NCBI RefSeq assembly: GCF_024713975.1
Contig: NC_091099.1
Coordinates: 15,667,501-15,731,500 of the forward strand
Direction of reading: 5' to 3'
Source of the DNA: Paralichthys olivaceus
Taxonomy: Eukaryota > Chordata > Actinopteri > Pleuronectiformes > Paralichthyidae
Length of the DNA stretch: 64,000 bases
Shown here: in pieces, positions 46,001 to 49,000 of the stretch
Position numbering within the stretch: the stretch's first letter is position 1
How the letters are laid out: each line of letters opens with the position of its first letter
The notes under the pieces: generated by a model
Told to the model about the DNA's origin: nothing
Database searches by the model: none
What the model saw: only the letters and a program-made list of their open reading frames with translations
Translations under genes and position numbers: made by a program

Positions 46001-49000
46001 GGTTCAGAGTGAGGGCTGGGGCACTGGGTCTGACTGCAGGAGACTGAGGCATGGCTGAGATCCCACCATGTGAATGTTGGGAATCATCCAAAGCAGCCAT
46101 GGTCGTCACACCTGCCGAGGCGGGACGCACAGTTGTGCTGCTGCTGCTGGGAGCCAGAGCGATCGCCGTCATTTTCACCACATTCACGGAGCTCACGTGG
46201 GAAGTGGGCATCACAGTTTTTATGGGACTGTTGGTGATGAGGAGGGTGGGGGGTGAGCGCAGCGTGATGGCACTGGTGGCAGAGGGCTTGGGCAGGATTT
46301 GAGCGTATCGCGTACTGTGTCGCGCCAGACGGTCACCCACTGGACTGGCCGAGATATTCTGGGGAGTTTTGGGGGACTGCTTAAGAGACTGAGTGACCAC
46401 TTGGAAGTTCACAGGCAGCACTTTTCCCTCCGCTGTCCCGACAGGGCTGGGTGATGTCATTAACTGCCTGCTTCTCTGTACCTGGTAGAAAAACAGAGAA
46501 AATCACACTGAATCTAGGCACATTGAATTGATAATATACCTCAACACAATTAGTGGGAAAAATTCAGCCCCATACCGTGACTGGGCTGGGGACAGCTGCT
46601 ACGACGATGCCTATTGTAGGCTGCGGGGAGAGCAGAGCAGGGCTGCCACAGGGAATGGTGGGGCCAGGGGTGCTGGCCTCTGCTCTCTTGATCTGGCTCT
46701 CACTGGGCAGGGGCGAGTGGAGCTTCTGCTCCTGCTGCTTCTTCTGGATCTTTCGCTGCAGTTGCTGCTTTGCATCAACAGAGGGCGAGGGCAGGGTCTT
46801 CACCTGTGGCTGGAAGGAGTTTGCCTCAGCTGTGGGCACAAACGCAGAGGCAGGAGTTGGCGTCTTCAATCCTGTCAAAAGAAGACAAATGTAAGGAATT
46901 ATGATCACATATACAGTGACAAAGTTAAAATACTATGAGCAGTATTTTCAAGGATTTCAAACTAAGCTTTTAATATGTAAAACATGATGTTCAGTTGTGA
47001 TCACACATCAGATCAGAGGACATCCTTACCTGTGGGTGTGCCGGTCATAACAGTGAGTGCAGCCATGGACTTAGTACCAATGTAGTGGCTGTTGAGCAGG
47101 AAGCGGGCCAGGTCCTCCACATTGTCAAACTGACGACTCAGGACCTTTTGAGCCCACTCACACACCAGTCCGCAGGCTGCAGATCTCATCTCATCTTCAG
47201 CGCTTGGCGACTGACCCGACGACTCCATCAGCTCACACTACAGTCAGACAGAGCAGAGCAGCGTGTGGATGAGCGTTCCATGAGTTAAAAGTCTAACTAG
47301 ATATTTACATTTGTGTTGAAAGTTTTTATGATGAAACTTACCCCATCACCAGATTTCTGCAGATCCAGGTTGGGTAAAGACGGCATGTGAACAAAAGCTT
47401 TCTTCCTTAACCCACTATAACAGTATTTGAGAAGGAGTTAAGGCGTCTGAAACTTAATGGCTGTGGATACAGAAATAATTATAATAAGCTGATGCTGACG
47501 CTTTCACTGAAACGGTTTCTAATCTATCCTCTGCTAATCTTTACATCGACAAAAGGAGTTACTCTGAAAATCTGACAGGAAGCGGAAAAAAACAAATTTC
47601 AAGGCCAAACATTAGCTTTTCAGCTCAGTGCCAAGGATATGCCTGCTCGCAATATTTCAAAATAACAGCAACTGTGGCAACTGTCTTTTGGCAATAGTGG
47701 AGTTTCATTAACTACATACACTGATATTTCCTTTTTGATCAGAGGTTTTACATGATTTTAACATTATTAAGATCCCTTTACATGTGTGAGTTGAATCCAT
47801 TTACTGTGCTTATGTGAATTAAGTTTGATTTCTCACTGTCACCTTATTGACACCATTAATACTGACCTGTGTACTGCTTAAACTGACGAAGTCACAGCAG
47901 ATTATCCACTGCACATATTCATGCATTTCCACCACAGGCAACACAGACAATATAACTCACCACATAGAGACGTATGACCACTGAAGAAAGCCGATAGCCT
48001 ATGAGCTTTTTGATCGAGAAAAACTTGACCATTTATTTATCTATTTGAAAATAAAAATATCTGGCAAGCTGTTCTGCAGATTATTAGGTCCAATTTGGAG
48101 TTTTTGTTTATAATACAAATCTTGACTTTCAATGGCTGACTCTGCATAAGAGAAGAATAAAATGGAGATGTTAAAACAGTTTAAAAATCCACAATCTTCC
48201 TGATTAACTCCTGATAACTGAACAACATACTGAAAAACAAATGCTGTCAAACTTTTGCTGATCGCTTGTTTAGAACTAAAGGATATTTGGATTTGCCCCT
48301 CATGCCCAGTCGACGTGCCTTCATGTTAGGAAAGACATTCTTCATGATCTTTCCAAAGTCTGCTGCACTCAGTGGATTGTAGCCGAGATTGTCACAATAG
48401 CTCCTGTAAAATGAGAGAATCCACCGTTAAAAAGGTCATTCATACATACTCCCGTCACCTCGCCTGACTCCCACACTGAAGATGACACACTCACTTGTAC
48501 TCATCATACACCTCTTGCTTTGGGAGGGAGGTCTCTGGGTGCTCCTCTAGGTGATTCCGTATCCAGTTGAATGCATACATCTGTTGAGTGCGGCTTGATG
48601 ACATGGAACTCTGATCACTGAAATTGGTGCATAAGAGAACCAAAGCTGGTGAGGCAGTGTCCGTGACTTGTACGCATCATTTCTTGTTAATACAGAAACT
48701 TTAATACCATAATCCAGGAGTGGAGGACCCCCTCTCATTCTCAGTCCAAATGGGCAGAATTTGGGGGTTGGGGTGATGAATAGATATGGGGAAACAAATG
48801 AAACACAGACAGCTAGGTATAGCAAAAATCTACATAGTTCAATGGTTTGCGTTATAATGATCAATCAATCATCAACAAAGAAGAAAAAAACTCTCCAATG
48901 ACCAACAACCCCTCAAAAAATGTCACAAATCAAAAGAGATCAATTTCATTTCTAGGAGCTATGAGCCCAAACTGTGTCTGTGAAGTGTGAAGATTTTCGA

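Follow-up and report, generated by a model that had tools for sequence, protein, structure and literature searches.

A probable U12-type intron with AT-AA ends in the DNA-binding domain of an rfx7 gene of Paralichthys olivaceus

We analysed a stretch of 64,000 nucleotides of the Paralichthys olivaceus genome (G000:C7:15667501-15731500, hereafter the window), which carries a gene of the RFX family on its minus strand. Among the neighbouring genes at positions 1-36000 of the same strand is a myosin V gene, for which the one peptide tested gave myosin Va as its best PDB matches. One tested peptide each likewise identified two further minus-strand genes, one near 18700 for an L24e-type protein and one near 35000 with immunoglobulin domains, presumably protogenin. 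An open frame of 126 residues at 56344-56721 (LLLQMMHEWDDNESNEVEQF..., minus) looks coding and gave no Pfam or PDB match at 0.001. A scan of the window with Rfam models at gathering scores gave no match.

The exons of the RFX gene were placed by reading frame, six in number from exon a downstream (Table 1), and when joined they encode 1410 residues without a stop. Spliced exons b and c match the RFX DNA-binding domain (PF02257, E 1.4e-19, 70.9 bits against a cut-off of 27). The intron between them therefore lies within this domain, as the first-pass annotation had proposed, with GKSK before it and YCYSG after it. The two solved structures found for relatives, RFX5 in 8zjr and RFX1 in 1dp7, are unbroken across this junction, and RFX5 reads GQSKYCYSG continuously (8zjr_M). 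We take the gene to be rfx7; the choice of rfx7 over rfx5 rests on features of the RFX family and on comparison with an rfx5-like gene on C20. The other four placed introns are all GT-AG, with lengths of 91, 104, 158 and 94 nt. In the last exon, a polyglutamine run at 44190-44264 consists of 24 Q with one T; a shorter one at 43512-43529 has 6 Q, and a (PT)7 repeat lies at 44763-44804, all on the minus strand.

Table 1. Features of the rfx7 gene and of its U12-type intron, in window coordinates.
Feature	Position	Strand	Remarks
Exon a	48495..48617	minus	followed by GT-AG intron 48494-48404
Exon b	48287..48403	minus	first part of RFX DNA-binding domain, ends GKS(AA); PF02257
U12-type intron	47427..48286	minus	860 nt, phase 2 (Lys codon AA/A), AT-AA; same position in two paralogues
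5' splice site ATATCCTTT	48278..48286	minus	9/9 to RTATCCTTT
Branch site CCTTAAC (GCCTTAACT)	47437..47443	minus	8/9 to consensus UCCUUAACU
3' terminal dinucleotide AA	47427..47428	minus	AC in both paralogues
Exon c	47342..47426	minus	(A) + 28 residues; PF02257
Canonical AC in exon (ATAC)	47423..47424	minus	4 nt 3' of AA
AG in exon	47415..47416	minus	12 nt downstream of intron end
Exon d	47030..47237	minus	flanked by GT-AG introns
Exon e	46576..46871	minus	flanked by GT-AG introns
Exon f (last coding)	43077..46481	minus	coding to 43080, stop TAA 43079-43077

The first-pass annotation had given the boundaries of this intron exactly, and the strand, which it had not named, is minus. Judged by the U12-type consensus for donor and branch site as quoted in PMC2846911, the donor deserves the word perfect that had been applied to it, and the branch-site match reported beside it agrees in letters and in spacing. 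The rechecked letters are ATATCCTTTAG at the donor and CGCCTTAACTCCTTCTCAA/ATACTG at the 3' end, and 11 nt separate the last A of CCTTAAC from the final intron base, a distance within the optimum of 11-13 nt given in PMC3584512. With AT first and AA last, the intron falls under the AT-AN (A-type) definition. Because CAAATA is repeated at both intron ends, seven junction registers give an identical mRNA. In the U12 register the ends are AT-AA; none of the seven shows GT-AG, GC-AG or AT-AC ends or qualifies as U2-type. A second U12-type donor-like word, ATATCCTTGG, occurs at 47633-47640 (minus), 214 nt before the 3' end of the same intron; about 0.03 such words are expected in 860 nt (3.45e-5 per base), and no partner exon was seen for it.

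These motifs are common by themselves in 64 kb. Counting both strands, RTATCCTTT was seen once (1.9 expected), RTATCCTT three times (4.4 expected) and CCTTRAC 20 times (15.6 expected), and a pair such as GTATCCTTG at 40826 with CCTTAAC at 39757 lies at no known exon boundary. It is the placement at the codon junction that carries the weight: a first-order Markov model fitted to the window puts at about 1.6e-7 the probability of finding the 9-mer in any of the seven registers along with CCTTRAC inside a 13-nt zone. We also scanned 1589 nearby donor and acceptor pairs with six kinds of termini. Reading stays open through exon d in 110 of them, and a single pair, the AT-AA junction, keeps the 15-residue domain peptide, in agreement with the earlier claim that only this junction preserves GKSK-YCYSG.

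We then consider the paralogues in the same genome (588 Mb searched, in 25 contigs). A search with the spliced domain gave at least five matches: C7 and C1 each contributed two exons, and C20 a single one. All three RFX5/7-type genes found, of at least three in the genome, have an intron at the same phase-2 codon. The junction of the window gene on C7 reads ATCCAA/ATATCCTTTAG..CTTCTCAA/ATACTG. A second rfx7 copy on C1 reads TCAAA/ATATCCTTTGC..AGTTCAC/ATATTG, with an intron of 393 nt, AT-AC ends, the donor ATATCCTTT and TCTTAAC at 11 nt. The rfx5-like gene on C20 reads TCCAA/ATATCCTTCC..CTCATAC/ATACTG, with 604 nt, AT-AC ends and the donor ATATCCTTC. Over 63 residues of the domain, identity to the window gene is 55 for the C1 copy and 41 for the C20 copy. 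Thus the codon, the phase and the donor ATATCCTT, which is common to the C1 and C20 introns, are alike in the window gene, whereas the window intron is longer and ends in AA. The intron is thus not peculiar to the window copy. The U12-type identity and the AT-AA ends that had been proposed are supported by the signals of the intron and by two paralogous introns at the same codon; since both paralogues have U12-type donors there, the match in rfx7 goes beyond chance.

A branch site at 11 nt is present in two of these three genes (C7 and C1). In the C20 intron a pattern search of the last 45 nt found none, and a weak candidate seen by eye, TCCCTGACC, stands 16 nt from the end with 6/9 agreement to the consensus; this poor branch site counts against our reading of the shared intron. 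The interior of the C7 intron has no match in the C1 or C20 intron at E up to 1, and the C1 and C20 interiors have only 10-nt words in common. Considering that the C7 interior is unmatched in either paralogue, the splice signals are what has been kept, and the donor, branch-site core and spacing common to C7 and C1 form the pattern that would be expected under recognition by the minor spliceosome. Self-matches indicate that the C20 intron (L007, about 1287-1728) is largely a degenerate tandem repeat.

A genome search with an RFX1 fragment gave seven matches, comprising the three RFX5/7-type genes and four genes on C8, C5, C3 and C18 (loci L019-L022) that we assigned from their sequence as RFX1-3-like. 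RFX4, RFX6 and RFX8 were absent from the matches of this search and of the spliced-domain search. In the viral and genome contig collections no RFX7-like relatives were found, which is expected, as these collections are not meant for animals. All four RFX1-3-like genes have SKYHYYG uninterrupted and lack the U12 intron. Each of them instead has a GT-AG intron after the second base of an Arg codon; it shares phase 2 and the domain segment with the window intron, but lies 12 nt upstream and has major-type termini.

Among the seven RFX genes seen, the putative U12 intron is a mark of RFX5 and RFX7. Its shared codon and phase in the rfx5-like and rfx7 genes, together with its absence from the RFX1-3-like genes, indicate that it was probably present before rfx5 and the two rfx7 copies diverged. 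Because two of the three paralogues, including the more distant rfx5-like gene, end in AC, the simplest ancestor would be AT-AC, with the terminal base most likely changed once from C to A in the C7 copy. As for the introns of RFX1-3 and RFX5/7, independent gain looks simpler than a 12-nt slide of a single ancestral intron: the phase is the same, but the branch-site region would have had to become coding. Alternatively, the RFX1-3-like intron may be a shifted U12-to-U2 conversion, as described with a shift for one Trichinella intron in PMC2846911.

As a kind, the AT-AA intron is less unusual than had been suggested. Unusual termini of U12 introns are indeed known, as the first-pass annotation said, but its view of this ending as remarkable did not stand, since the main text of PMC10639083 describes AT-AA, the same termini as here, as the commonest non-canonical ending of minor introns in animals. 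The same text puts non-canonical ends at about 3.8% of orthologous minor introns in animals, and Table 2 of PMC7367187 lists 2.7% of zebrafish U12 introns with 'other' termini. PMC3584512 describes AT-AG as disfavoured at the ends of minor introns and splicing at unusual U12 termini as often less efficient, and the latter counts against the AA end proposed here. The window intron departs from none of these published rules: it resembles A-type AT-AN U12 introns in its RTATCCTTT donor, CCTTRAC, 11-nt spacing and variable 3' base, and differs in ending in AA where AC is usual. 'RFX' does not occur in the main text of PMC10639083, and none of the paper texts searched contains RFX7 and U12 together as whole words. 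RFX5 and RFX7 may well already be listed in U12DB, MIDB or IAOD.

Because an AC follows 4 nt past the AA, mixed use of AA and AC or an error in one base are both possible on the DNA alone. Mixed use, with AA as the productive site and AC as an unproductive switch, would be compatible with our main reading, and we consider it unlikely. This AC lies 15 nt from the branch A; splicing there would put translation out of frame and meet a stop 5 codons on, and PMC3584512 describes the selection of U12 3' splice sites as error-prone. However, the AC is simply part of a Tyr codon, TAC, and the C1 copy has TAT at this codon and no such AC. Splicing at the AG, 23 nt from the branch A, would stay in frame and replace KYCYS by N.

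That the intron really ends AT-AC, its last A being a minor allele or a mistake of assembly or base calling, is very unlikely. A single base does separate AA from the AC of both paralogues, but the genome is assembled in long pieces, the 1410-residue frame is open across the six joined exons, and AT-AA is a natural ending by the account in PMC10639083. We also thought of A-to-I editing of the final AA, as editing at GT-AA splice sites is documented (PMC4176328); we gave this idea no weight, since the only inverted repeat reported for the region does not extend over the 3' splice site.

It is highly improbable that the major spliceosome removes a GT-AG intron from a displaced position and so alters the protein. 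Cryptic splicing at major sites is described in PMC8280824 where minor splicing fails, but no GT site in the region reaching from 80 nt ahead of the donor to 120 nt past it agrees with more than 5/9 consensus bases, and of 294 GT-AG pairs scanned only nine keep the frame open and none keeps YCYSG. The GC-AG pairs fared no better, with 0 of 189 keeping the domain. Finally, a transposon-like insertion with CAAATA as target-site duplication and no intron at all would account for the CAAATA at both ends, but has a negligible probability, given that the ends carry no inverted repeat (minimum 12 nt) and that the same site is an intron in two paralogues.

The genome also encodes minor-spliceosome components. 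We found two loci for U6atac RNA (133.5 and 122.3 bits, Rfam cut-off 33), one for U12 RNA (120.1 bits, cut-off 53) and one for U4atac RNA (88.9 bits, cut-off 53). For CCDC84/CENATAC (PF14968) there were 16 matches over the Pfam cut-off, all on C4, where four tandem units each contribute four exons. Each of these searches gave matches in none of 14 control genomes.

The CENATAC array (G000:C4:5342376-5381614, loci L013-L017) is more unexpected than the rfx7 intron. Its four units are spaced by 9.4-10.0 kb; aligned with one another over 3.7 kb, they show 98.6-99.6% identity. Across the copies, the four matched protein pieces differ at a single residue (S/R) in the first piece, which may fall beyond the exon end. 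Each unit contains a repeat array of 309-bp period (for example G000:C4:5347945-5349835); its length is about 1891 bp, except in the third unit, which has 1273 bp, two repeats fewer. Four copies exceed what two haplotypes would give, and an assembly fault is possible. In human cells depleted of CENATAC, 92% of A-type introns, AT-AA included, were affected versus 24% of G-type introns, according to PMC8280824. One could imagine that the last base of A-type introns came under looser constraint once CENATAC was amplified, with endings such as AT-AA drifting from AC and this rfx7 copy, beside its AT-AC sisters in rfx7-C1 and rfx5, as one case, but we hold this to be quite improbable. The array and the AT-AA end of rfx7 stand side by side, and any tie between them is a guess.

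In minor splicing, U11 and U6atac read the donor and U12 reads the branch site. For the window gene, the minor spliceosome would recognise ATATCCTTT via U11 and then U6atac, and U12 would recognise CCTTAAC. We infer a cut just after the AA, 11 nt past the branch A, which would restore the Lys codon and join GKSK to YCYSG. CENATAC would be needed, since the intron is AT-AN. Successful minor splicing would then yield the full RFX domain, whereas retention would lead to a stop 13 codons past the junction, and none of the 294 GT-AG pairs scanned keeps the domain. Dependence of rfx7 output on the minor spliceosome, as stated in the first-pass annotation, is thus a sound inference: where minor splicing fails, rfx7 protein should be lost.

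In summary, the intron of the window gene is very probably an A-type (AT-AN) U12-dependent intron of the RFX5/RFX7 subfamily that is cut at AA and derives from AT-AC. From its sequence, it is well supported as a minor intron of a kind already described; its end is somewhat unusual, its place in the gene is an interesting one, and sister genes share it. RFX5 regulates MHC class II genes, and RFX7 is a transcription factor under study in cancer. Both would be candidates for direct control by the minor spliceosome, by way of an old intron in the segment that recognises DNA. Additionally, the three paralogues in one genome offer a natural comparison of AT-AC with AT-AA at one shared position, which may help to learn how splicing efficiency depends on CENATAC and on the 3' terminal base.
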